Shown here: positions 37,696 through 64,000 of the stretch, piece after piece
How the letters are laid out: every line of letters begins with the position of its first letter
Numbering within the stretch: the first letter of the stretch is position 1
NCBI GenBank assembly: GCA_950295325.1
Contig: OX485803.1
Span: 39,137,554 to 39,201,553, forward strand
Source: Polytrichum commune
Taxonomy: Eukaryota; Streptophyta; Polytrichopsida; Polytrichales; Polytrichaceae
Direction: 5' to 3'
DNA length: 64,000 nucleotides
The notes under the pieces: generated by a model
The model's database searches: none
What the model was told of the DNA's origin: nothing
The model's input: the letters and a program-made list of their open reading frames with translations, nothing else
Position numbers and translations under genes: made by a program

Positions 37696-40402
37696 CAATG
37701 CGGACAATGATATAATGGTGGTTGTGTGTAGGTGATTTTGGAGGCATTGATCATGGTGTGGGGTGGGAGTTTGAGTTGAGCAATGAGAATGTTGGAACTA
37801 TCTTTACGGATTACACCTCTTTGCCCTACAATGATGATGATGAGTGGTTGGACTCTCCACCCATGTGTGGCGATGGCAGTCATGAGGGGGTCTACTTGTC
37901 ATGTTTGCGTTGGACGGCTATCTTTGGAAATTTCTCATGCCAGTGTGTAAATTCAATGAATTGTAGGGAGAAGGTGTTGGAGGGGTGTGAGGGGGCGGGG
38001 CATATGTAGGGAAGTCATTGACCAAGAGCATGTTGGGGTATAGGTCATGTAGGCATTGACAATGTGTGTGTGTGGGGGGGGGAAGTGCATTGGTTGGGCA
38101 CTGTATTTGGACAGGAAGTCTAAGGTGGGGTTGCTATTTATGAGGCATTTCCATCTTGCAAGATGGTGAGTGAGAAGCATTTCTTTGATGTTGAACAATG
38201 TTTTGTTGTGTCTATCTATTTGGGGTCCATTGATGACTGGGTATCTGCATGTGGCCAGAAGGTAAGGCCATGTGTCCATGTTGTGAGGGCCTCTACTGCA
38301 TAGTGTACAATACATGGAGGGGAATTTTGTTGGCCAAAGGAGGTGTTTATGGAAATTGCCCATATATGGACCATTGAGAAACCATAAGGTCTGTGAGACC
38401 TCAATAAGGGTGATGAATAGAGTTTTCCATAGAGTATTGGATAGACTAGGGTCGAGGTGCTCATTGTCCAATGATTTTTGGATGGAAGGGTGTTTTGGTA
38501 GTATCCAACCATGGTGGATACTTTAGATTTGTTAACCAAATCGTTTGTGTATATGCTATAGAGAGGTGAGTGTTTTAGGGGGGGGGGGGGGGGGAAGGGG
38601 GAGGGGAGGGGGTTCAATAGGGAAGTGTGGGAGTGGCGGGGGTAAGGGGAGAGGCTGTTTGTGTTCGAATTTGTCAAGGAATCCACTTTTTTTTTCAACT
38701 TCTTCATGAAGGTCAGTTTGCTAAGGGGTGTAGGGAGGGGGAAGGAGTTGGGTAGGTGTTTGGAGGATGGGGGAAAATAGAGGTTTGTGAGGGAATGTGT
38801 GTCCAATAGTGGATACATATGACCGACATTGCTCTTGGTTCAAGATTGTGTATGTACTTGGGGAAAGGGGCGTCAACATGGTATTGAAGGGTGTAGTGTG
38901 GGAAATGTGCAAGGATTTGGATGTCAGAGTGGGGTGTGTTGATTGGGTTGAATTGTTCTTTCCAATTGGTGTATGGGATGAATAGTATTGTGATAACTTC
39001 CAAGTGGTGCACGGCTACTAGTTGTGCCTATTTGATAGCTTTTGGGGCTTCTCGTATGGGGGGAATTGCCACCCATTTGCTTGCCATTTGTGAGTCATTT
39101 GTGCCTATTGACTTAAAGATGCAGTCTCTAAGGTGGGGGCTTCGGAAGGATGAGAGTGAGGTTGAGCATGTAAGTGGGAGATGCCGAATATGGTCATGAT
39201 GAGGTATAGTATTTAAGGAGTTACCGTGGAGTTTGAGAGAGCGTATTCAAGTTTTGTTTGTGAATTGGAGGGTTTGGGGAGGACATATTGTAGGTATCTT
39301 TTGATTAGCCAAATGATTTCCGCGTTGAAGTTTTGTTTGAGGGGTTGTAGTTCAGAGTTTGTGGTTGTGGTGTGGTATTGTTGTTGTAACTAGAGTAGTC
39401 AAGTATGGGATGGAGCCAAGTTTGGCGCCAAAGGGTGTATGGAATATGTGCCATGAATTGGGAGAGGTGGAGGGGGGCCATGGTTAGGGTGAGCTTCTTC
39501 AATATTCGTGTGGGACGTTCATCTTGGGGAGGATCTAGTTAATGTCTTTGGGTTGTGGAAATGATATGTTTCTTTGGTGTGCAATGGTGAGGGTGTTGTT
39601 GAGGTGAGTTGTGTAGTAGTATTTGATGAGGGTTTTGTGGATTTCATGGTTGCTTTCTGTGGGGTCCCCAAATAGGTTGTCATTTGGTTCTATGGTATTT
39701 TTTGAATTTGGTACCCTTGCCGTTTCATTTTGTAGTAGGTTTATGGGTGGGTGATGCCATAGTCATCAATGGAGTTGTTATAGGTGGTGTAGAGGATTCC
39801 GCCAATTTGTAGTCCATGTTCCGGTGGGTTATTATTGATGGTATTGGCATGGCGGGTTTGGATGAGTGAGGGTATGATTGTGGCTAAGGGAATTTCCCTG
39901 GGTGTGTATATGAAAGATATTTTGGTGTGTGGTGTATGGGGGGTGTTGGGACAGGGAGCATGTTCCTCTATGTGGGTGGTTTGTTTGGTAGCAGAATATG
40001 ATGGAAATGATATGTAAGGCTTCTTTTATGGGTATTGTGAGGGTTTTGTGATGTATTTTGAAATTCTAGAAAGAGAGGAGTGACTTGGCCTAAGCCTTGA
40101 GTAAGATGAGAGAGATGTGTGATATAAAGTTTGTTGAAAGTTTTGAGGATTATGGTTTTGCATGTGGATTCTGCAAGGTCAAGTTGGTTTTGATGTGGGC
40201 TTGTACCCAAAGGAGGTGGAGTAGTCCATACCGTGTTTGGGTGGGGATCTAGGATTAGTGGGAGAAGGGTGAAGTTGGATGGGAGGTGTTTCCAGGATGT
40301 GACTTGAGATGTCCACGAGTTGTAGGATTTGTAGACTTCTTGTGAGAGGGAAGTGAGAAGATGTGGGATGGGTGAGGAATGGTAGGGTGGCGAGATGTTC
40401 AC
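37696..40402 (-). pseudogene. R2-type non-LTR retrotransposon, 3' half, dead
   Basis: The C-terminal end of an R2-like LINE polyprotein is readable across shifted frames. LPxxLWKTLFITLIEVSQTLW is followed by the zinc motif CTLCSRG..DTWPYLLATC (38309-38240; Tyr stands where His is usual), then IDRHNKTL (to 38202). The restriction-like endonuclease follows: LYPNMLLV where LRPDILYI is usual (catalytic Asp replaced by Asn), then QFIEFTHWHEKF, and GWRVQPLIIIIVGQRG near 37850. This order (zinc finger, RHN, RPD, IEFT, GW.V.PL) is that of R2-type elements in lower plants as I remember them. Upstream to about 40402, long C-rich frames (Pro/Thr/His-rich) probably carry the eroded reverse transcriptase; I could not find an intact YxDD box. 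The coding strand is strongly C-rich, giving the G-runs on +. Confidence 0.75.
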
Positions 40403-45449: not shown

Positions 45450-46090
45450 CAACTTCCATGACTCGATTTGCAAAAAAATATGGTCTCCATAATGGTGGTA
45501 TTGGCCCCAAGCAATTGCGGCTTGGAACACATTGCATTGAGGCGGAAGTAGAGCGTTGGTTTGCCTTGTGTGAATCAAAATGGCTACGAGTATTGTTATT
45601 TAGATGATGAGGATCAAGGAGGTTGAGTTGAACTAGATGATTTGCCATCGAAAAACAAGTGTGCCAATTACATGACTTATCAACAAAGCCGAAGCTCGTG
45701 GAATTACATGCGAGAGGTTGCCTCGTAGCCAAAAGACAGAGGTAGACTTTTGCAACTATTGATAGCGTCAACTATACTTACTCTATAATATCGTGAGGTT
45801 GTCGAAGGGAACGTAGCGGAGGGGTGGGAATACCTCTGTGTCTTTGAGATAGACATGCCTAAACAAGAAGGGCTTGTGAGAAGCTTCCTGCAACAAAAGG
45901 CGGACTTGGCATTGGAGGTCATGAAGGTGCAATCGCAACTAGAGGGCCAAAGGCAGTTGGTTGCAACCGCGAAACCCAATTGCCAAAGTTGAAGGCAAAG
46001 TTGGATGTAGAAAATGTCACGTTCTTGGCATTGCAAACCCAAGTTTATGTTTTTGAAGGCAATGTCGGAGCATGGGTGGGTCATTTCGTG
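45450..46090 (+). pseudogene. Coding-like fragment with coiled-coil character, frames broken
   Basis: Stretches on + read like protein: MTRFAKKYGLHNGGIGPKQL and on (from 45460), then after stops EVVEGNVAEGWEYLCVFEID, then MPKQEGLVRSFLQQKADLAL followed by EVMKVQSQLEGQ, and in another frame KLKAKLDVENVTFLALQTQV. The last part has heptad-like leucine spacing. There are at least three stops and two frameshifts. I do not recognise the family; it could be a dead transposon accessory gene. The 108- and 136-codon minus-strand frames here are shadows. Confidence 0.3.
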
Positions 46091-46099
46091 TAATTTACA

Positions 46100-47163
46100 A
46101 ACAAAAGGTGGCATAATATAGGGAAGATTAAATTCATTTATTTTTAATTTTATAAAGGAATTGCAAATAATGAAAGGATCATTTCAAATAAATTAACCTC
46201 ATTATAAATAAAGTAAATGGGTATGGAATGTGGGCCATTTTTTTTATAGTAGAACTAATATAAGGGTTGGAGTTTAGGATCCTAGGGTTTATGCTTAGTA
46301 TGATATGTTTGTATGCATGCACTAAACTAACTAGTGCCAATAGAGTTGGAATTGCTACTAACATTTTGTCTGGAGTAGATGAGGGTTCACGGTGGGTGAG
46401 AGGGTGCAAGCCATGAAGCAGCGTAATGGGCATATGTTTGGGGTACTAAGGTAGCCGGTTGACCTCTTGGTCTGAGTCAAAGAATCTACGAGGCAAAAAT
46501 CTCATAATCCCTTTATTGAAGTGATGTTGGAATAGTACACGAAACATTTGGGCTGTAACAAATTCAAATATGATCACACTAATAACAAATAAATTGATGT
46601 GGATTGCATTATTGTACTAAGACCACAAGCTTCGATGCTAGCAACAAAGTATACATACTAGATAGGATTAATGTGGAGGAATTGGAAAAAAATTATGACC
46701 AAGAGAAATGTATAGGGTTCATATATGAGGTTTGTGCTTGTGTGTAGACTCCTACAAAGCAATTGTTGTGTTTTTAAGCACATAATCAATCTATTTTTTT
46801 GGTGAAAACACCTATACTTTTGTAATGCATATGATGTATGATATTTTATTTGTTGATATGGTTGTGTATAACACGCAAGTGTGATGTGGTTGTGTTTTGT
46901 TTGAAGCCCCTTTGAAGTTCATGACTGTAGGAGTTGTGTTTGCAATAGTATGTATGGACATGGATTACTTTATTACTATTTATAAGGAATATATACTATA
47001 ATAAGTTACATCGGCATGGGAAATATAAGTAATGGTAGGGTGCAAACAAAGAGGTTGTTTTAAAGAATGAAGTAATACTAGGGAACCTTTAAATCATGTC
47101 TTGGAAGTAAATAACCCTTAAACAAATACCCATCCGTCACACATATAGAGTGACACATCCCTA
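46100..47163. mobile_element. Possible decayed CTCGGGG-family element, copy 4
   Basis: The right side (TAACCCTTAAACAAATACCC, then ATCCGTCACACAT) matches the right subterminal part of copy 1 at about 7920-7960. The left side (gcataatatagggaagatta) and the GGATCCTAGGGTTT block also have counterparts in copy 1. The terminal CTCGGGG and a target duplication are not visible, so the limits are rough. Confidence 0.35.
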
Positions 47164-48736
47164 TAGAGTGACACACATGTGTGTTGGAGCACAACTTGCA
47201 GCCATGAAGAGTGTCGAATGGAAGCTTGACTCACAGTGAGGGATGATGGATGCATTTGAGGAAATGCTAAGTGAAGGAGAGAGGAATTTTGGTGCTTATG
47301 GTGTGAAGATGTCCAAGGCAAAGGTTTTGTGGGAATTGGCTATGGAGAAGTAGTCAATGCGATGTCACAAAAAGACTTTGTTGAAGCAACGTGAATAATA
47401 CAAGTGCGCAATCGGCATCCAAGATTTGAGCCTTCTCCACCTAATTTTACTTTGTTTGCTTTTCAAGAAAACATTAATTTTGTTATTCCGCTTTGCCCCT
47501 TTACTCCAACGAGTTGGGAGCCAACCTAGGAGTTGAAATTGGCATCTTCTAAGTGTGCCCATCAATCTTGGTGTGCCTTGATGCACTTCTCTAGTTCTCT
47601 GAAATGCTTTGCAAATAATTGTGCAAAGGAGCAACATCCAAAATGATGGGCAAAACCTAGAATCAAGAAACTTGTAGTGGATGAGCAGGGTGCAGTTCCA
47701 ACATCTTGGGATGTGCACAAAGATGCCAATAAGCAAGCATCATAGGGTTTGTTTTTCTATTTTATCTTTTTTCCTATTCTGTTCTAAGCTATTGTACTGC
47801 TATTAGAAGTCTATGGATTGGTTGTTGGTTTTGAATTGGTTGTGACTATAATTGACTAGGGACTTGATGTTAGTGGAATGTGGATTCATGTTGGTAACTT
47901 GGTACTCTTGTGATTTGCAGGGGGGAAAGGTTTTAAGTCATTGTTTCTCACTATAGTTCTATGTTCATATTATTTCCTTGGGGGCCTCAAACATTGGATA
48001 TGTGGTGGATTGTAGTATCTTGTTGTCATTGATTCTTGCTGAAAATCATATGAGTTAATTCAACACCCTTGTAAGCTGATATCTCTCAAACACAATCCAT
48101 AGGTAGTTGCGAGAACACATTGAAGTCCATACAATTTATTAGTATTTCAATAGAACATAAGTGTCATGACTTCTCCCTAGAGTCTATTTGAAATCCCTAA
48201 TTTGTTTCAGTTCAATGATCGGGGAGAACCGACAGTTAGTTACAAATGAACCAGTTGAGTTTGAGAAATCACCGGTTGAAGATCAAGATTGCAAGAAAAT
48301 TACCGATCATTTTAGAGGAATTTATAGAATATACCCCAATTTAATAAAGGAAAACCGGAGGATGTCAACATGTAACCGGTTGGACTTGCAAACACTAGGA
48401 TCTCAACCAATTATGCCCAGAAATCTCCCCAATCACTGGTTCAGTTTTCCATAGTTTCCTGTTTTAGTTGACTAAACTCCATATTATACTCTACTAATTT
48501 CCTACTGTAGTCAACATGGTGACTGAAGCCACTTTCCCATGCTTGAGATTAAGTGCTGTGATGTTGGCCTTCCTTGTAGATCCAATTTCTAGGTCGATTT
48601 CTTACGGTCTTGTGTAGCATTAGGGAGATGCATACCCCATCCGCTCAAATACATTGAGCCCATCAGTAGACGAGAAGGCATTCTCCTTCTTGAAGCCCCG
48701 AGAAGAAGCATGGGAACAAATTTCTCAAATCCAAGA
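47164..48736. other. Intergenic DNA with weak coding-like patches
   Basis: Around 47480-47745 the + strand reads FTPTSWEPT-stop-ELKLAS and then KKLVVDEQGAVPTSWDVHKD, protein-like but short and stop-broken. A frame at 48188-48454 (88 codons) follows a CAG-type acceptor-like sequence and repeats an ACCGGTT word several times. Neither is recognised; both are left uncalled. Confidence 0.3.
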
Positions 48737-52310: not shown

Positions 52311-53709
52311 TCTTTAAAACAGTAATGGGGGGCATTCACGGTTGGGTAACTACTTTTGGGTGTCTAACGGTTAAAGGACTATTTTGAATAACTTCACATA
52401 CTTGGTGTGCTTAGATTTGTATTGTGAAGCATATTTTGGATCATACCTACATTTCATACTCCGTATTGAGTACACCGACAAAGTTAATTTACAAGGAATA
52501 GGGTTATCTAAGATATCATTTTGATTCCTTAAAGGACATTCATGGGTGTTGTTACATTTGTTCACCTTAGGATCAAGGAATGAAAAGGACACCAAAAATT
52601 AATCGAAATGATCCCAATTTTTTTCCTCACAATCATCGTTCAAGTGTGTACCAATAAAACCAAAAATGTATTCCATACCAATTATATAACTTTACATGTG
52701 GCACCAAACATGGCCAAAAATACATAAATCATGGCTACATGAGAAAAGAACGTTTAGTATTACAATTGGACATAAAAAATTATATGTATGGACACATGAC
52801 ACTTATACCAAGGTACTAAGATGTAAAACAGGAAATAATTGACCTCCAATGCACACCTAAATAGCAAAAAATGCCATTGATGTGGCCAAATTGTCATTTT
52901 TTATATTGGATTCATGTTGCTATGAAAATCCCGTCACCTTCCCGTTGACGCTTAACCGAGAAGATCTCGGCCGTTGGTTCTTCCCGAGATCTGTTCAAAC
53001 GATTCCCAAAGATCTCATCTTGGCCGCTTGTTTGGGCGCCATGGAACAGTGGCCACCCACATCAACCTAAACCTTAAAACACATTTTCTTCGTCTGTCAC
53101 TTCGAAATCATGGAGCTGCTGCGGTGGGTGTACTCTAATATTCTATGTCTGTACATTATGTGTTGTGTATTGAGTCAAATCCATGATCTTTTGAGTATTA
53201 TGAATCATGAGATGAGGTTTTCATACACCACCTTAAACTCTTCCTCATAGAATTTTGGGGAATGACAAGGGTCAGTTTGAGAGTCTTTTAATGAGAAAAT
53301 GGATCTGTGGAGCAGTACTTAGGTTGCACAAGAATACAATATGCCAATTTTTGAACTGCAAATGTGTTCCTGTAGCAAACTTCCCAACTACAAAGTGAGT
53401 GCCCAAAATTACTTTGTCAGATGTTTAGGGTACACAATAGGTTTAAGCAACTCCTATCATATCTTGAGGTGAAGAATTATACCACATGCTTTCAAGTAAC
53501 ATATCATTACTTTCATGTTTTGTGTTTTTGGTATGGAATGGTAGGTGTCTTGAAATTTCAGTGAGGTCCTAGGATATTATTGATGCGTCACCATAACAAT
53601 TTCGTTGTCTGTGATGCAAGTGACGAAACCACATATGTTTGGGCTAACCGTAAACACGATTGTTTGGTATAGGTAAGATCTTGAGTTCAACATCATTGTC
53701 GAGGATACG
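52311..53709. other. Intergenic DNA upstream of the DDE-type gene
   Basis: A 62-codon + frame ending at 53070 contains NREDLGRWFFPRSVQTIPKD, protein-like and GC-richer than its surroundings, but unrecognised. The last kilobase before 53710 would hold the promoter of the DDE-type gene or the left end of its transposon. No inverted terminus could be identified. Confidence 0.35.
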
Positions 53710-56700
53710 ATGGCAAACAAACGAAACCGCCAGGTCCTAGGTCAACATAGTAGGAAGTTATTGGGCGCAATTGCAGCTAAGAGGATCCAGAATACACAAG
53801 CTAAGCGTAAAATTAATGCACAACATAGGAAGCACCAACAAAACTTGAGATTGCAATCTGAAAATGCGGACCATGTTTTTCACATACGTCTAGCTCAGAA
53901 TGTCCTGGAACCCCCATAGAAGGTCCATCATCCTCAACAAAAACTGCATCCCGATTCGGTAAAAGTTGGGTTGTATCTTTGTTACAAGCAACCAACACAA
54001 GAGGGTTGGACTTTCAAAAATTGGTAGTTGAAAGCATCTTGGGTAGTACGGTTCTGCAACATTTCATGCCAGAATATGTACTGAAACGCAAGAAGTTGTT
54101 AGGGTGTGAGGTTGTGAGGTTGTTTGTAATAGTATTGCATCTGCCTAGGACCACTTAAAATTTGGGAAGGGTAAGGATAAATATGTGGCAAGAAATGTGG
54201 TTGAGGTTGCAGTAGTGTCCACAACCTCTGGGTCCAACATGCTGGGTGCTGGAAAATGCATTGGACTCAATAAAACAACACTTTTGAGAGCTAGTCATCG
54301 TAGGCAACTACTTGATGCTGAGGAGGAATACGAATGTTGGGCAAAGGGCGATAGAAAGCCTAGAAAAGACTCCATTCCAGAAGATGTCAAAGATTTAGTT
54401 GGGAAGTGGTATCTTGAAGAGACAAGAACGAGTCCAAACATGGATAATGTAGTTCGGCACCTTATTGGTCGTCATCAATGGGAGCACTATGCTACACATT
54501 TGCTCCAAGAATCAGAGGTAAGAGTCATTTTCTTCTTAATTTTTGTTACATTTTCCAAAGTTCATGCTTAAAGTTGATTATACTCAGTTTCTCATGTATT
54601 ACTGGTAGTTCAAAGTACATGCTCCGTTCCTCACAAATCCTTCATGGGATGAGTACATAGGTCATAGTACTTGTTTGGAAGTTTGTATGTATTGGTTTCA
54701 TAGTCATTTTTATAGGCTACATTGTTCACTTTTGGTAAGGACTTTTGCCAAACTCGTAGCTTCCTTACAATCCCCAAGTAACCTCTGATATTCAATGGAT
54801 TTCCAGGGAAATCTTAAGGAACTTTATCATTTTCATGACGCTTCCTTGGGAATCTAAAGTACTCTGTAATTTTCATTTCACTTCCTCGAGATTCTTAAGG
54901 AACTCTCAAATTTCCTTGAAGATTCCTTGGGAATGTAAAGTACTTTCTAATTTTCATTACACTTCTTGGAGATTCTCAAGGAACTCTCAAATTTCCTTGA
55001 AGATTCCTTGGGGATTTAAAGTACTTTCTAATTTTCATCACACTTCCTGGAGATTCTCAAGGAACTCTCAAATTTCCTTGAAGCTTCCTTGGGAATGTAA
55101 AGTACTTTCTTATCTTCATTACATTCCTTGGAGATTGTTAAGGAACTTTCAAGTTTCCTTCAAGCTTCCTTGGGAATTCAAGGTAACTCTTTGATATTCA
55201 TGAGACTTCCTGGAGATTTGTTAGGAACTCCCAAATTTCCAAAAGTTTCCTTGCGAACCTTCAGTATTTCTTTAATATTGATGTACCGTCACGTAAATTA
55301 TTATATTATTGTACATTCATTGGATCCCAAATGCAAAATATCCTTATTCCTTGATCTCCATCTACTCCTTCAAGACACAGAATGAGGCACATCATGATTT
55401 TTCCTCATTTTATTACACTCCACAATACTTATGTATATTATTTTCATAGCAGTACCTAACATGACTCTCACCTGCATGTGTACTAATGTGTACGATGTTT
55501 TGCATGCAAGCATAGGTGGATTTCTACACTAGATTTAAAGTTGCACATCCAACACTGGATATTGGATTCATTTCCTTTCACAAGCTGAAGCCTTATTTTG
55601 TGAGGAAGTCAAAAGATTTCAACACATGTTGTTGTAAATATCATCAAGAGATGATAGAAATCAAGGTGGGCTTCAATAACTTGAGGGCCCCAATAGTACA
55701 TCAACAAGGTTTGAATTCTCCTTGTGCTTGTTGTTGTGAATCCACTTGTGGGAATCCAATCAACGGAGCATGTCAAGGGCAAGGAATATCATGTCAAGCT
55801 ACTTACCATACCTACAAATCTTGTTCAGATTTATGGGAAAAGTTTTTATGTCCCAAAGTCAGGGGACACGAATGGTTCAATTTAAAATGTTTGACAAGTA
55901 GTTGTGTCAAATGTGGTGTTCAACTACTCCTAGCTTGCAGCAAGGAATTGGATTATGAAGACACTACTTTAGTAGCTTGGAGAAGATTTGAGAAAACTCT
56001 TGCAAGGGAAAACTAAGAAGGGAGAGGATAAGTTTGTCACTAGGCTAGAGAGAAAAATGTCGAGCCCTAGAGAGTTCGTGATTTATGCAACTCCCAAAAT
56101 TCAAAAATTTATCATGCATAATTTTCTGGCACAATGGCAGGATAGACAATTCAGGATTAGTAAGGAAAATTTAAAGAGGATGAGATCATGTCCCTTATAG
56201 ATTTCTCTGAGAATTCCTCCTTCAAGACACAAAATGAGGTGCAAGAGCAACATTGGTATAATTTCCAGCTTTCGATTTTAGTGCACATTAGATATAGGGT
56301 GAACCCAAAGTATGACCCTAGTGATAGTAAGAGCCTAAGGTTAAACACTGATTATCACTATTACATAAGTGATGATCGCAAACACGACAACCTGTTTGTC
56401 CAACATTGTCTCAATCTACATTGGCAATATTTAACATCACTAGGGTTCTATCCAAAACGCCATATAGTCTGGAGCGATGGTTGTGCAAGCCAATTTAAAG
56501 GTACAAGGCCTTGGTTTTTTGTGTCACGTTATCCCAGTTTGACATCATGTGATCAATTGCCACTTGGTTGCGCAATGCAATGGAACTATTGGGGGTCCGG
56601 TCATGGAAAGGGACCTCATGACGGGGCAGGTACTTGCCTTAAGCAAGCATTGTGAAAGGAGCAACTAAAGCCGTATGGAGCACGTTTGCAAAATGCATTT

Positions 56701-57494
56701 GATGTTGTTGACTTCCTCAAAAACTCCATGAATAAGGACCATGCAGCATATGTTGGTGCTCGAAGGGAGGTGAAACGAAACTTCCATGAGATCAAAGAGA
56801 ACATGGTTGATCGTCAACATGGATTCAATTGCTGAACAGTAAAATGGTCACATAGTTTGCACTCAGTGCGCTCCATGAGTCTATCCAACAATGTCTTGTT
56901 GGAAACCAGAGCATTGGCATGCTTTTGTGATGGATCTGTTGACCCTAAACCTGGATTATTTTGTGTATCTACATCACATGTGCCTCCTTGGAAGTTAGTG
57001 ACATTGCAACCATGTGCAGCTGATGATGCTGAATGTGATGTAGAACTACACACTAATGTTTGGGGCAATCCAGGAGATAGTAATGAGTTTGCGTCCATAT
57101 TGGATGTTGGAGACAACTTTACTGTCAAGGTTGACTCCGCTGATGGAGAAGGAGCATCATTCTACATAGTCCAGTGTTTCAAAAGACTGCATGTTGTCAA
57201 CAAAGCTGAAGGACCAGATCCATACGGTATAAAAGTGGACCAAGGTGATGAGGTAGTGCTCGGTGTGTACTATAAGCAGTCTGGACAAAGTCCTACATCG
57301 TTTGTTCTACAATCAGACGTGGGTCCATGTTTTATTTACACCCATTGGGTAATTGCGTCAAAGTTCCCCATGGTGCAAGCTCATCACACACAAAAAAAAG
57401 GGACAAAGTTGTGTATGCACTCCCACAAACTGCACTACATGAGATAGAAGCAGCTTTGGAGGAGTGTGGAGGATCCGATGACGATGAATGTTGA
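53710..57494 (+). pseudogene. DDE/RNase H-like transposase-type gene, intron-containing, degraded
   Basis: In order: basic N-terminus MANKRNRQVLGQHSRKLLGA; a helix-turn-helix-like block (AGKCIGLNKTTLLRASHRRQ) then CWAKGDRKPRKDSIPEDVKD and TRTSPNMDNVVRHLIGRHQW; donor gag|gtaaga at 54518; intron to 55515 (ag|gtg). The second exon has DFYTRFKVAHPTLDIGFISF, Cys clusters (NTCCCKYHQE, CACCCESTCG), then LIDFSENSSF (Asp 56200), QNEVQEQHW, VWSDGCASQFKG (Asp 56476), GSGHGKGPHDGAGT (Asp about 56620), HSVRSMS, and a C-terminal domain with VGDNFTV, DQGDEVVLGVYY and a tail SDDDEC-stop at 57494. Related proteins are widespread in animals and plants as transposon-like genes; I cannot name the superfamily. 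Lesions: frameshifts at a C5 run near 53910 and at A-rich runs near 56005, 56165 and 57392-57399; stops TAG 54146, TGA 56653 and TGA 56833. The downstream ORF from 56857 is the same frame continued. Confidence 0.72.
54760..55260 (+). repeat. 81-bp tandem repeat inside the intron
   Basis: About five to six units of 81 bp. Each contains CTTGGGAATxTAAAGTACTT, a TCTAATTTTCATxACACTT block, TGGAGATTCTCAAGGAACTC and AAATTTCCTTGAAG. Outer units are more diverged than the middle three. Being a multiple of three, the array stays open in one + frame (119 codons, 27-residue period), but it lies between a good donor and acceptor and is intronic. Confidence 0.85.
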
Positions 57495-58558
57495 CCCAAG
57501 TAAGTACTTCCACTAAAGAACATATTTTCTCATTCACATTTTAATATTTTATCTATTCTTTCAATTATGTTCAGTGTTCAAATGTTTAGGGTATAATGGT
57601 GAAAAAATTGTCAATAAGAAATTGTGTGATCTAGAAGAGTTGCATTATAACCACATGCATCAGCTTCTTATCTAAAGGTTTTGTATTCACCATTCATCAA
57701 AAACCAAGGATTATGTACTAGGTCATTGGTTTAGTATATGAGCAATCCCAAGAGGTACTAGTATTTAAGGCATGTATTTCATCATTCTCAAATCTAGGGA
57801 GTTGTTGTGGTTTTATATGAGGGCGTGCCTTATATGCCAAGTAGTTGTTGAATTGATTGTCTGCTAAGGTTGTTGATATGTACAGTGGTATGGTTGCATG
57901 GTAGGGAACACAATTACAAGGGCTAGGAGGACTCAACTCATGGAGACTTCCAGCCTCAAGCAGTCATCTACTGTAACCTGAACCAAAACCAATCTTGCAC
58001 TCCCTTGAGTGAAATCCCGGATGGTGTCTTCATGTGGCCAAGTTGCATGCATATGCTCTTAGAGCATGTTTAAAGCGTTTTTGGTACAATTTTATAGCCT
58101 TATCATATACTATGTGTGACAATGCGTGCTCACTATTGAATGAAAAAGACACCATGACAAGGGTCTTACCATTTTATGTGTAACGAGCATGGGATTTGCT
58201 ATGTAGACCATTTAGTTTCAAATGTGTAACCATGCTTCTCTATGCCTCACATGTCTCGGATGATAGCGTGTGCAATTGTTTTTCATATCCTTTGCTTTGA
58301 ATTTGGAGGTTGGAATTGACAAAAAGATTAGCCCATTCATATTTCTTAGACCTCATATCATTCCACTTTTCCATCATGTGTAGCCCCTCAACCCTTGTCC
58401 CCTTCTTATGTATGTTCACAGAAAGCTAGAATGGACAACAAAATTGGAGCACTTAGTCCAAGTGACAAGCCAAGCTTTTGAAGCATTTGATTGACGTAGC
58501 ATGTGACAAAATTGACCTAGCATGTGATTGAGCAGAATTTGGACTATGACAAATTGGA
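57495..58558. other. 3' flank of the DDE-type gene
   Basis: No gene. The phrase AAATTGGAGCACTTAGTCCA occurs first at 58441-58460 and again inside the hairpin that follows, so it is a local repeat. Confidence 0.4.
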
Positions 58559-58668
58559 GCACTTAGTCCAAACTTGCATATGACAAAATTGGAGCAATTA
58601 CCACAAACTTTGAGTGTGAACTAGACTAAGTGCTCCAATTTTGTCATATGCAAGTTTGGACTAAGTGC
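58559..58668. repeat. 38-bp perfect hairpin between convergent genes
   Basis: Left arm 58559-58596 and right arm 58631-58668 are perfectly complementary over 38 bp, with a 34-base loop. The arms start GCACTTAGTCCAAACTTGCA. The position, about 1 kb past the stop of the + gene and 1.3 kb short of the end of the - locus, would place it in the 3' region of either transcript. Confidence 0.9.
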
Positions 58669-59987
58669 TTCATAAAATTCAAAGTCTTATAACATTCAAA
58701 GTATGGCTTAGAGCACTTAGAGTTTTATGAGTGCAAGTCTGAGTGACACAAATAAGTATATACTTTTCTCATTTGCTTATACAACATACACATTGAAATG
58801 GACAGAGTTCCATAACATACAGTTGTTGAGGTGTATACTACTTTGTCATCCTAGAGTGACACAAACACTAGGAGTGGGCTGAAAGATAGTTTCAAGGGGG
58901 AACATGCATAACTTACAACAATATTTCTGAATCAAGGCTCTTCCCAAAAATTACTTCCATACAATGTAGCATTACAGTTCTCCATCACAGTCTAGGCTCA
59001 ATACCAAGAAGTGGAGCATTGCAACTGAAGATTGGAACACAGTATCAAAATTGTTTTGTCTACAATTTCTCTAGGAACTATAACTATTCATATAGTAGAT
59101 GGTAGAGAATGAACTTCATTTTAGAAGAACTCCAAAAACATTCTTGTACATGCAAACAACAAATGTGTCAGGAGTGACCCACCGTATTAAACAACTTCAG
59201 TATGATGCAACATGAACCCTTATAACATATTATCATGCTTGTTTTGTCTGCATGTAAATCCTTTGTCAATTGCAAACAATGTAAATATGAAAACTTTGTG
59301 CATCATCTACCTAAATCTAGGAATAAACTTACCTTCAGGGTTGATAGTGTTTTAGTTGTAGAGGACTTACCTTTAGGGTTCATAGTGTTTTAGTTTCATA
59401 GGTGGAAACCCCCATCCTCAAATTGCGTCTTGTCCTTGATGCTGGTCCAGATGAGGATGCATGACCTGTTGTAGGAGTGGATGCCACATCACTCAACAAT
59501 GAAACTCATTTGTTGTTGATGAAGGTTGTGCAAGTGCACCTCTATCTGCATAATCACAACAAATGAGTATAAATGGTAGTGTTGGTGCAGTTGCTAGCAA
59601 AAATTTGTGCACATTTGCTAGCAAAATAGCAAAATAGCACAAACATGACTTGAATTGACCCAAAAAAAAAATGTGAACCTAAAAATGAAGACTACTCTAT
59701 ATGTTCAACATGGTGTTGTTGATTGGGTTGGCAAACATCTGCAACATCACAACTTATGAGTACAACTGGAAAGTAGGAAGAAAACACTACAATCAAATAA
59801 GAATAGCATGTATATGTTAAATCATGTGGGTGAGTGTTAGGTGTTTACCATGCTACCTTGGCACAATACTATGTTGCAGATCAGAAGATGATGACTATTA
59901 AGTCATCCCAACAAATCCCCAATCTTGCAACTAAAACTTATGAAGTCCTCAATTCTGCAAAAATTGAGTGTTTTTATTGGCACCAAT
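58669..59987. other. Spacer between convergent loci
   Basis: AT-rich with no recognised gene. The phrase acttacctt(c/t)agggttxatagtgttttagtt is directly duplicated at about 59329-59356 and 59369-59396. Could hold additional 3' exons of the - locus, which I cannot resolve. Confidence 0.35.
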
Positions 59988-61828
59988 TTAAACATCCAGT
60001 CTTTTTTGTATGGAATCAATGTTCTTTTGAAGAGTACCACCTTCTCCAACAAGGGAAACTAATTCATCAAGAGCATGTTTTACTTCCAATGCACAAAAAA
60101 TGTGAAAGTCTGCATCAGCCTCAGGACCACAAGCAGTTTGTTGCGCACGTGCCACTTCAAGGCGATCCTTGCACTGCAAGGTTTGGTATCCAATCTGGCT
60201 AAGATTACTTTGAACAAGCTTAATCTCTGCCCTTAGCCCAATGACAAACGCATCTCTATCACTCAACAACCTCATCAGGAGTTCTATTTTCTTTGCAAGT
60301 GCTTCTTTCTTCATATTGCAAACATGATCTTCATTTACAAATGAGGGATTGGGAGATTTCATAGGAGCATCACTCACTCTCTCACAAGTTGGAAACTTAG
60401 GAGAGGTAATAGGAGATTTACCCTTTCCCTTTATGTTTGTTGTGACAAGTGAAGTAGTAGGAGAGCTAATTGTCACAAAATCTGAATGTGGACGTTTATG
60501 TGCTTTATAGCCAAAGACTTGAACCACAACTGCAAATAAGGCCCAATTGATTGTACTACCTCTCCTCTCAGCGATGACTCCAAGTGCAATGGAGAGGCCA
60601 ACTTCTTTGGCTTGTGGCCATTCTCTTTGGTAAACCAAGGGCCACAAGGTAAGGATCCTCTCCTGCAGTTCCTTGGGATCTTTGTCCATGAAATGGTAAC
60701 CACCGTGACCTTGCCTAATTCCCCACAGACTATCACATTCTCGAATCAAGCCATCTCGCCCCTCAAAATCAACCTTCCTAGGATTCAAACCCACAATAGG
60801 AAGACCCACATGGTCCCTGAACCACTCAAATGAACCCCAATTACTCTCAACCATCCTGGAATACAAAGTGTAGATATGGAAGTGAAGGGGAGGAAGCTGA
60901 GGAAGAGTGGGAGGGGGCTGACAAAATGGAAAAGACCTGGTAGAGAAAGAAACTTTACATAGTAGGTTGGGTTGGAATAGTTTCTCACATAGAACTAGCA
61001 ATTATTTCATGCAACTTGCACATTATGTCCACATTAGTCGTTAATACATAGATGTACGATGAACTCGACTACTCCTAATGAGATGGTCGTTTGAACTTGA
61101 TTAAGGCAAGGGGAAGTTCTCCTAAACTCAAATGATATTCATAAATTGAAATGATACCAAGGGGGGTTTGCAAGGAAATGTACCTTGTGCAATTGAGGCC
61201 ATTTAAAGGCAATGATGATTAGGAAATTCACCATCAGGTGCATTATTGAACACTAGTAAAACATGTGGAATGAGGATCAAAGTAGACATACAAAGATTAG
61301 TTGGGGAATTAACACATGCAATGATGAGAGTCCAAGTGCAATGCTCTTGAATTCAAAAAATGGCTTTCCATTTTGAACAAATAACCAAATGGAAAAACAA
61401 TGTTTTGTTGATCTACATTGACTAAATTCCTCAATATACTAGAGCCTATGAAACCAAGAAAGAGAACTTGAAAGCTCTAAGACAATTTCATCATTTTTTG
61501 GCCTTTTCTGGGAGCAAGAGGCCCTCGTAGCCTGGTTTGAACTCTTGGAAAGGGGGCAGGTTGTGTTGGACTTTTTTTTCCTTTTTTTCACCTCCCTTGT
61601 TATGTCTTCTTGTGTGCCTTGACTTTCATTATGAAGAGCAAGACCATCAACTGTATTATCTACAGTTGTAGTCAGTTGATGCTCCGACTCCAGATTATTG
61701 ACCTGGGTTTCACGATCTTTCTCTAAACTTGCAACCCAGGTCAGTAATCCTGCATCATCATCATCACTATCAGTAAGATAATTGTTACCTAGGATTGGAT
61801 CATCCCCTGCAATTTCTACACATTGCAA
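59988..61828 (-). pseudogene. Unrecognised coiled-coil gene, two exon-like blocks
   Basis: The upstream block (61828-61439) may start as an exon after the acceptor ttgcag; it reads GDDPILGNNYLTDSDDDDAG, an acidic and then a basic segment with KKRKKK (nuclear-signal-like). The second block follows a good polypyrimidine tract and acceptor (ttccag|GATGG, exon from 60855): VESNWGSFEWFRDHVGLPIV, ECDSLWGIRQGHGGYHFMDK, then LSIALGVIAERRGSTINWAL, Ser/Pro-rich linker, and a heptad-rich C-terminus (KIELLMRLLSDRDAFVIGLR) to the stop at 59988. The pattern of an ..ExRRxxxxNW.. region plus coiled coil is one I recall from repeated gene families in mosses and ferns, function unknown. No catalytic motif. The second block is open for over 280 codons, so part may still be expressed. 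It may continue the transcript from 61832-64000. Typed as pseudogene because no clean donor joins the blocks. Confidence 0.45.
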
Positions 61829-61831
61829 CCC

Positions 61832-64000
61832 TCATTTTTTATTCTTTCTGGTCATCTGGTTGGAATTGTTGCAGATGATGAAGGAATTAAATGTTGCCGA
61901 CAGAGATAGGACCAAGGGATGTACAGGAGGGGAGTTAGGTTGTAGAAGGTGCCACCCTTTAATTGTGGTTGAACATGTTGGGCACCTTGTTAGTCCTTGA
62001 ACACATGCGAAACAAAAATCAGCATTTCCACAATCCTGCAGCCATCCACACATCATGTTAATGGCGTAAACAATTGAAATAGAAACTACAAAGGTCATTG
62101 ATGAAGCAACTCCTTTGAACTAACACAAAAAGGGATCGTACCTGAAGGCAAACTTTGGCTGGATTTATTGCACATATCTTGCAAGGTTGAAGTATTTTTT
62201 TTGCAATGTTGGGACTGGTCGCACTATTGGGTGAATCATCATGTGATAGATGAGGTGAATCATCAGGGGAATCTTGTTGTGACTCCTCAGGTATTTGGTG
62301 AGGTGTGGGGAGTCCAGGTATATGAGCAGTAGCCAATGAATGTGGTGATGCAGTCGAAGGTGAGCTGGATGGAGCATAGCACGATGCCCCATGTTCCACA
62401 ATAGTTCCTGAATCTGCAAAAACAACAAGTACTTGGAAATCAATTTTTTATTTATTGATTTTATGGTTCAAAGGATTTTTTCCTGAAATTTTTATGCAAG
62501 GTAAAAGTAGTAAGTCAGGAATGTTAAAAGTACTTTGGCATGCAAAAGGAAGGCAACATGTCACTCAAGGAAAGTTCAGGAATTTGTGAACTAGTTTTGG
62601 TATGATTTAGGACCTTTGAAGTACTTTAATATTGAGAGGAGGAAAAAAAAGTAAAGTACTTACAAGGCAAGTAATCTATGAAAATAAGAAATAAATAGCC
62701 GGAAGTACCAAGTATTCATAAAGGACTTTGTGCCGATGGCAAAGGGTTTAGGAAGTTCCTGAAGATTGAAAAGGACTCCCATACATCCTTAGGCTTTACT
62801 TTCGCCTAAACCCTAAACCCACAGAATTCACCCATGACTTCCAAGGAATTCATTGAACTCCAAACACATTCCATGCATGTCAAGAATGGGTTTTTTGTTC
62901 TTGCATGAAGCATACAAAGAAAGGACTTTGTCTTGAATATACTCTAAAGCATGCAGAAGATATAAGGAGAAGGGAATGAAAACAAGTAGTACTAGGAATG
63001 TTTGCAAAGTTATTTAGGTCATTTATTTCACTAAACAAGAAATGAACACATAAAATAATGCAAGTTAGAGTAAGTGTGCTCACCAGATTGAGGAGATATG
63101 TTGTTTAAGGCAAGAATTGTAGGCTTCCGCCCATGTTCTCCATAAGGTCTTATTCCCCATGTTGTGAGGCATTTGATGTCAATATCTTCTCCACGATCAG
63201 GAACTAAACATGCTAGCGAATTTCTAGCATGTTATGTAAAAACACCGTGGATGGTAGGTGTGGCCACAACTAGCTGCCAAATGCTCATGACATTCATACC
63301 ACAAATTGCAAACACGACAAGGGTTGAGTATGGAAATACTCTCTTTTGGGGAGTCTGGATGTGAGGGAAGGGGTTGTGGATAGAGGATTGCACCTCCACC
63401 CTTCTCCATTCTCAAAATTCGTTGTTGGAAAGCAGGTTGCAAGGACTCCAAGGACTTCATGATGACCAAAATAGATTTGTATTCCTTCCCGTCTAAGCCC
63501 TCGCCTTCATGTAGGGCATCACACTCCTCTCTGGTAACCCTAAGCTTCTCTACTGCATACCTCTCAGTCATCCTTTCACATGCTTTCTGGCATTCTAATT
63601 CCTTAAGGGTTTCAGAAGCCAACCTCAGCGCATCTTTCTTTTGAGCAATTTCAGAATCAAAGTGCCCAATATCAGATCCACTGTATCCAATGTCTAAACA
63701 AGCGGATTTTTTTCACTAAAAGGTCTTTAAGCACGGTCTCTAAGTTCTCAACAACCACCTTGGCTGCAGTAACTTTAACATCATATTTCTCAAACTCAGA
63801 CAGGGTTGCATTGTAAATGGCTTCATGCTAGGATAACAAAAGTTGAATCCTTTGAGCCCCAATAGTTTTTTTTCTCTCCTTCTAATTTGAGGACCTCTGC
63901 CTTCTATTTTAGACTTGCACACAATTGTTCTTTACGAACCAATGTGGCTTTCATGCCCTCAATGTCCAGTACAGACCAATTAGGAGGTGTTATAACCTTC
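61832..64000 (-). pseudogene. Coiled-coil, zinc-cluster and RING-finger gene, 5' end outside the window
   Basis: Read from 64000 down: NWSVLDIEGMKATLVRKEQL opens a long coiled-coil region broken by stops (two TAG where CAG would fit) and by a frameshift at an A-run near 63870. Then comes an open stretch from 63622 (SETLKELECQKACERMTERY). A Cys/His cluster follows, CRVCNLWYECHEHLAASCGH..YHPRC (about 63315-63238), with a frameshift after it near 63225. Splice sites fit donor tctg|gtgagc at 63083, acceptor tgcag at 62414, donor cttcag|gtacga at 62141 and acceptor ctgcag at 62036. They join a Ser/Pro/Asp-rich linker and PCKIC..NPAKVCLQ to DCGNADFCFACVQGLTRCPTC, a C-terminal RING-HC finger in which the usual His (CGH) is Asn. 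RING fingers usually mark ubiquitin ligases. Whether this one works is doubtful given the lesions and the missing His. Confidence 0.55.
62414..63083 (-). other. Predicted intron of the RING gene
   Basis: Bounded by gtgagc and tgcag on the minus strand. It contains scattered words (AAGTACTT, AGTTCCTGAAG, CAAGGAA) that also occur in the 81-bp intron repeat at 54760-55260, suggesting that the introns of the two loci were built from related sequence. Confidence 0.5.

Follow-up and report, generated by a model that had tools for sequence, protein, structure and literature searches.

The right-hand part of the analysed window (64,000 nucleotides of the Polytrichum commune genome, C1:39137554-39201553) very probably holds a decayed copy of a multi-gene DNA transposon of the cut-and-paste type, with terminal inverted repeats (TIRs) starting in GGG, 4-bp target-site duplications, and convergent partner genes encoding WFRD and RING-like domains. 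The plus-strand candidate transposase gene and the minus-strand side facing it are parts of one transposable element, enclosed by a single TIR pair and a single target-site duplication. Comparison of copies across the genome (408 Mb in 64 contigs, about 406 Mb of it in seven) suggests a helper supplied by the element itself: the candidate transposase gene usually lies beside a facing partner gene with a RING-finger-like domain. The window copy itself looks dead.

Boundaries and gene content of the window element

The window element is a 12.75-kb TIR transposon extending from window position 52328 to C1:39202631, 1,078 bp beyond the right edge; positions beyond 64000 were taken from locus L040. 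Homology with the copy at C2:61.6M begins exactly at 52328, and the partner TIR ends at C1:39202631. The TIRs are about 33 bp long, start with 5'-GGG, and have AATG on both flanks. In the copy at C4:24.4M, below called the young copy, homology with a near-identical relative on C3 (99% identity) ends exactly at 35-bp inverted repeats, and the element measures 13,848 bp. A first-pass annotation, made from the letters of the window, had proposed a two-gene transposon at 53710..64000. The convergent pairing within one element stands, and that span does contain the facing genes; the window element has four genes, however, and it starts and ends outside the span.

The inverted termini and target duplication that the annotation suggested looking for were found in every copy with both ends read. 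All ten such copies, from three sequence groups, have GGG...CCC termini and matching 4-bp duplications, with TIRs of about 29-35 bp. The duplications are AATG, GGAA, CAGC, TTGG, ATAC, TTAT, TCCG, AATT, ATAG and ATAT, with A or T at 27 of the 40 letters. For the two third-group copies the ends called by similarity were shifted by 2-4 bases onto GGG before the duplication was read, so that these two duplications are partly post hoc. An eleventh copy (C1:37.7M) has only one TIR end in the stretches examined. The features of the window element are as follows.

52324..52327, no strand: left copy of the AATG target-site duplication; its right counterpart lies directly after C1:39202631, outside the window
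52328..52360, plus strand: TIR at the transposase end of the element, GGGGGCATTCACGGTTGGG...; the matching TIR ends at C1:39202631 (window-equivalent 65078)
53677..54571, plus strand: N-terminal exon region of the transposase gene, decayed; 30% identity to the N-terminal frame of the young copy over 53940-54547 (E 1e-18)
54776..55283, plus strand: tandem array of ~81-bp units within the transposase intron, found by self-comparison of the window
55471..57494, plus strand: core exon of the transposase gene, carrying all three Asp motifs (DFSEN, SDGCASQFK, HGKGPHDG) and broken by frame changes and stop codons
58438..58672, no strand: foldback (hairpin) between the convergent genes, recurring in two other copies of the subfamily
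59988..60848, minus strand: ORF3, a WFRD domain with a coiled-coil-like tail; 44% identity to the young ORF3 at 60845-60522 (E 4e-22), 79-92% to other copies
61439..61831, minus strand: acidic stretch that may form the C-terminal part of ORF2; the match falls short of significance (50% over 20 residues, E 3.4)
61877..62447, minus strand: ORF2, a RING gene of the C3HC4 type that an intron probably splits; 33% identity to the young ORF2 at 62041-61877 (E 0.006)
63224..63712, minus strand: C-terminal part of ORF1 with a RING-like finger (CRVCNLWYECHEHLAASCGHTYHPRC); 34% identity to the young ORF1 C-terminus at 63397-63239 (E 3e-4)
63713..64000, minus strand: probable continuation of ORF1 past the window edge; WFRD at window-equivalent 64117-64524, 36% identity to the young ORF1 (E 9e-22)

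The three motifs DFSEN, SDGCASQFKG and HGKGPHDG, by which the plus-strand gene had been recognised, are all located in a single open stretch (56164-56655, plus strand). The Asp residues of these motifs, earlier named as a possible RNase H-like site, are invariant between loci L035 and L001 and in the alignment with the window as the third row; their spacing in the young copy (L035) is 91 and 47 residues. Over 55471-57408 the window core exon has 42% identity with the young copy's open frame of 651 aa (E 5e-158), and the exon end at 57494 was read from the frame. The decay that had been noted on both sides is visible in this exon as frame changes and in-frame stops. In a low-confidence AlphaFold model, the predicted strand order around the Asp residues no more than hints at an RNase H core.

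Open reading frames (ORFs) at 59988-61001, 61439-61831, 61832-62119, 62058-62447 and 63224-63712 on the minus strand face the transposase gene, as had been described. The first-pass annotation read them as one locus with a RING finger. A weak RING match is indeed present: Pfam zf-C3HC4_3 matches 61832-62119 with E 0.0021 and 18.3 bits against a cut-off of 27. Instead of a single protein, the minus-strand side is three genes with two different RING-like fingers. ORF1 has a WFRD domain, a coiled-coil-like middle part and a RING-like end; ORF2 is a C3HC4 RING gene; and ORF3 has a WFRD domain. ORF1 and ORF3 share an N-terminal domain, which we named WFRD from its commonest motif; the two young proteins match each other with E 5e-12. 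The coiled coils in the partner genes were judged by eye, as was the first half of the ORF2 finger in the window. The young ORF2 matches zf-C3HC4_3 with E 4e-5 (23.8 bits, same cut-off). The ORF1 C-terminus is weakly RING-H2-like (zf-RING_2, E 0.04 in the young copy), and ORF1 of the third group matches the RNF165 RING in PDB with E 2e-4.

The gene order is identical in the window element and the young copy. The young copy contains a 552-aa ORF1 frame, the ORF2 RING in two overlapping frames and a 573-aa ORF3 frame on the plus strand, and a convergent transposase on the minus strand with frames of 651 and 246 aa, and perhaps also 153 aa. Its genes align in the same order with the window element at 64524-64117 (ORF1 N-terminus), 63397-63239 (RING-like end), 62041-61877 (ORF2 RING), 60845-60522 (ORF3), and 53940-54547 with 55471-57408 (transposase).

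Pairing, copies and selection across the genome

Matches to the core of the plus-strand gene (90, merged within 3 kb) gave 75 transposase loci, and matches to ORF1 and ORF3 queries, merged within 10 kb, gave 81 accessory loci; all genome search counts are lower bounds. An accessory locus is found within 40 kb of 52 of the 75 transposase loci, in convergent orientation in 50 of these 52, and 56 of the 81 accessory loci have a DDE-type gene within the same distance. Random placement of the 75 loci (1000 trials) gave a mean of 1.2 paired loci and a maximum of five. Pairing is stronger among loci with long open frames (at least 350 aa, a cut-off of our choosing): 47 of 53 are paired within 40 kb, 45 of them convergently, and 44 are paired within 15 kb, 42 of them convergently. 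The window's own subfamily has five other loci at 91-94%, four of which are paired (C3:17.6M is not). The association that had been proposed from position and shared decay thus recurs in convergent order: most other copies of the DDE-type gene carry a RING/WFRD gene, and the RING locus belongs to a multicopy family rather than to a conserved single-copy host family.

The ORF3 query (59988-61001, minus strand) matches other loci at 79-92% and, more distantly, a set reaching at most 44%; some members of this set are nearly identical to one another. Among the first three flanks examined, the facing gene is present in two. The C2:61.6M copy has a 90-94% relative of the plus-strand gene core beside an ORF3 copy, and in the C4:24.4M copy the facing gene is a distant relative with a core frame open over 651 aa. 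The third group includes C6:10.56M (8,588 bp) and C7:11.95M (9,173 bp), in which the transposase is convergent with an ORF1 with WFRD and a RING-like end; the latter copy has an additional 247-aa acidic frame. In the fourth group (C3:6.76M, L059), the C-terminal part of ORF1 lies opposite the transposase. The RING gene ORF2 and the WFRD gene ORF3 are present in the two larger groups, and the shorter form of the element consists of transposase and ORF1 within 8.6-9.2 kb. In at least four sequence groups, transposase and partner have remained together. The young copies are about 98-99% identical in the stretches compared. Near-identical copies with different target duplications point to recent movement and suggest that the family was recently active.

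The ratio of nonsynonymous to synonymous substitution rates (dN/dS) was calculated by the Nei-Gojobori method between the pairs of copies given here. The third-group pair has values of 0.17 (transposase core), 0.48 (N-terminal transposase frame) and 0.31 (ORF1). Comparing ORF3 of the window with loci L006, L005 and L008 gave 0.23, 0.25 and 0.30, respectively. In the pairs tested, these values point to purifying selection on transposase and partner genes.

Several observations weigh against a transposon family with a linked RING-like partner under selection. The dN/dS of ORF3 against the two closest copies is higher (0.85 for C2:61.6M and 0.49-0.56 for C7:0.46M), and the three transposase pieces of the window give 0.23, 0.56 and 0.59 against C2:61.6M; raised values against the closest copies are as expected from decay after insertion. 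Six of the 53 long-frame loci have no partner within 40 kb, and two of the 47 partners are not convergent. Pairing is low among the shorter-frame loci, which include that of the window (5 of 22, all convergent), and the RING copy at C2:65.56M (L033) has no transposase within 9 kb downstream, which speaks against universal pairing. The RING matches of the partner ORFs fall under the Pfam cut-offs. The transposase has no significant match in Pfam or PDB by sequence search (the best Pfam E-value, 0.036, is not to a RING). Its AlphaFold model, from an 11-row alignment, has a mean predicted local distance difference test score (pLDDT) of 36.5, too poor to display an RNase H fold.

Affinity of the family and role of the partner

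From the pairing, the dN/dS values and the near-identical copies, we infer that the partner contributes to the movement or the survival of the element. On this reading, the transposase would cut with a 4-bp stagger at the GGG ends, and the WFRD/coiled-coil protein would bind the ends or the transposase and multimerise. The RING finger could be a zinc platform with a structural role, or it could control the transposase-DNA complex or a host factor as an E3 ubiquitin ligase. The partner would then be a needed helper and not a passenger.

There is a fair chance that the family is a superfamily of its own. A fuller form of this proposal is tentative: it would be a distinct eukaryotic cut-and-paste superfamily, independent of the Chapaev/RAG line, and its mobility would depend on an obligatory, separately encoded and convergent WFRD/coiled-coil/RING partner, in effect a ubiquitin-ligase-like subunit of its own. 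Kapitonov and Koonin (2015; PMC4411706) describe RING fingers in RAG1 and two Chapaev subgroups, and state that RING and Chapa occur in no other known transposable elements. A transposon-encoded RING or RING-like finger is common to Chapaev/Transib/RAG1-RAG2 and the present family, and the RAG form also has a second gene. However, their RING is inside the transposase protein according to PMC4411706, whereas the RING-like fingers here are in separate ORFs, and no RING match over the Pfam cut-off was found in the transposase frames.

Sola transposons have a D-D-D transposase and occur in plants; we know of no RING or WFRD partner in them. The element could conceivably be an undescribed Sola branch that acquired its RING/WFRD partner, a reading that we consider possible, if doubtful. 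The Asp triad and the 4-bp target duplications agree with Sola, and Sola2 elements are described with duplications of this length in PMC3627910. On the other hand, the Sola2 duplications are AT-rich (AWWT) according to that paper, a preference not kept in the ten duplications here, such as CAGC, TCCG and GGAA; the comparison was made by description.

An unlikely alternative is that the partner acts against silencing or in the control of the host. VANDAL elements provide an analogue in their VANC protein. The RING protein would ubiquitinate host silencing factors and so keep the element expressed, and the cut-and-paste reaction would not depend on it. The two different RING-like fingers of the large elements, the low dN/dS of ORF1 and ORF3 between more distant copies, and the separate, convergent position of the partner would agree with such a role. 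The retention of ORF1 at short distance in most groups fits a direct part of the transposition machinery equally well, and both the ligase activity of the partner and its target are purely putative.

Transposons do capture host genes, and the 25 of 81 accessory loci that have no transposase within 40 kb, a further point against a fixed partnership, would suit a host RING gene carried as a passenger by some copies. This explanation is very improbable given the convergent pairing of most long-frame loci across divergent groups, the multicopy nature of the partner and its low dN/dS in the more distant pairs. Chance adjacency of two unrelated elements, for which an independent ORF1 relic elsewhere in the window could be cited, is excluded for practical purposes by the shared TIRs and target duplication and by the recurrence of the layout.

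The interpretation as a transposon with its own partner genes was also compared with other multi-gene elements. PIF/Harbinger elements have a two-gene layout, in which they resemble the present family, and 3-bp duplications, in which they differ. The second gene of MuDR, a Mutator-like element (MULE), is mudrB. Pfam DDE_Tnp_4 matches a Harbinger-type nuclease frame downstream of the C2:65.56M RING-gene copy (L033:6640-7335, E 1.7e-16) and not the transposase described here; no MULE transposase domain was found by Pfam in the transposase frames. According to a 2019 paper (PMC6446971), the Ghost MULE carries a small RING ORF and some MULEs have an antisense second ORF. MULEs with a second ORF (MuDR mudrB, Mutyl MutB, Ghost) are similar in combining a transposase with a second, often antisense ORF. 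The MULE duplications listed in PMC6446971 are 8-11 bp long, in contrast to 4 bp here. The named superfamilies of transposons are listed in the Repbase paper (PMC4455052). Our literature searches on transposon families and a RING partner brought no description of a transposase-RING/WFRD pairing to notice, which does not imply that it is unpublished; a search on the transposase motif words gave no match. No relatives of the transposase were found by tblastn in viral contigs or prokaryote genomes, where a pattern pre-filter limits sensitivity and absence is not implied.

RING-like partners are thus kept with a Pfam-unmatched transposase in most long-frame copies of a family that comprises several groups. 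This makes it testable, outside the immune recombinase, why transposons encode proteins that resemble ubiquitin ligases. The combination of GGG TIRs, a 4-bp duplication and a convergent WFRD-RING gene can be used as a diagnostic in genome annotation; it flags genes that might be mistaken for those of host proteins without a known function.

Additional features of the element and the window

The hairpin between the convergent genes, earlier described as perfect, is present and is not perfect overall, because its 46-nt arms (58555-58600 and 58627-58672) are 96% complementary. It recurs in the copies at C2:61.6M (L034/L004) and C6:7.78M (L010); the comparison reported no match to it in the young copy's loci. 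The whole foldback (58438-58672) in the intergenic gap is perhaps a two-way transcript end. The C2:61.6M copy has about 3 kb extra between the convergent genes relative to the window (L034:2232-5233). The introns of the two facing genes have no common repeat in the self-comparison at E < 0.5; shorter words fall outside that comparison.

Loci C1:24066468 and C1:24144435 are in opposite orientation about 78 kb apart with an identical transposase-partner spacing of 9744 bp, perhaps an inverted duplication. Loci C2:62976287 and C2:62981118, 59% and 49% identical to the window gene, lie on the same strand about 4.4 kb apart, perhaps by nested or adjacent insertion. The transposase at C7:27470158 is unpaired within 40 kb. 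About 60 kb away, on the opposite strand, are accessory-only loci of the same family (C7:27530163-27553927); transposase and accessory loci are perhaps one element split by later insertions.

The window stretch 38001-40000 has a GC skew of +0.53 and an AT skew of -0.21, far from the remaining window. The second, independent ORF1-type relic in the window (45467-47652, plus strand) comprises pieces of the N-terminal domain (45467-45714) and a RING-like end (47482-47652), and is closest to the third-group ORF1.

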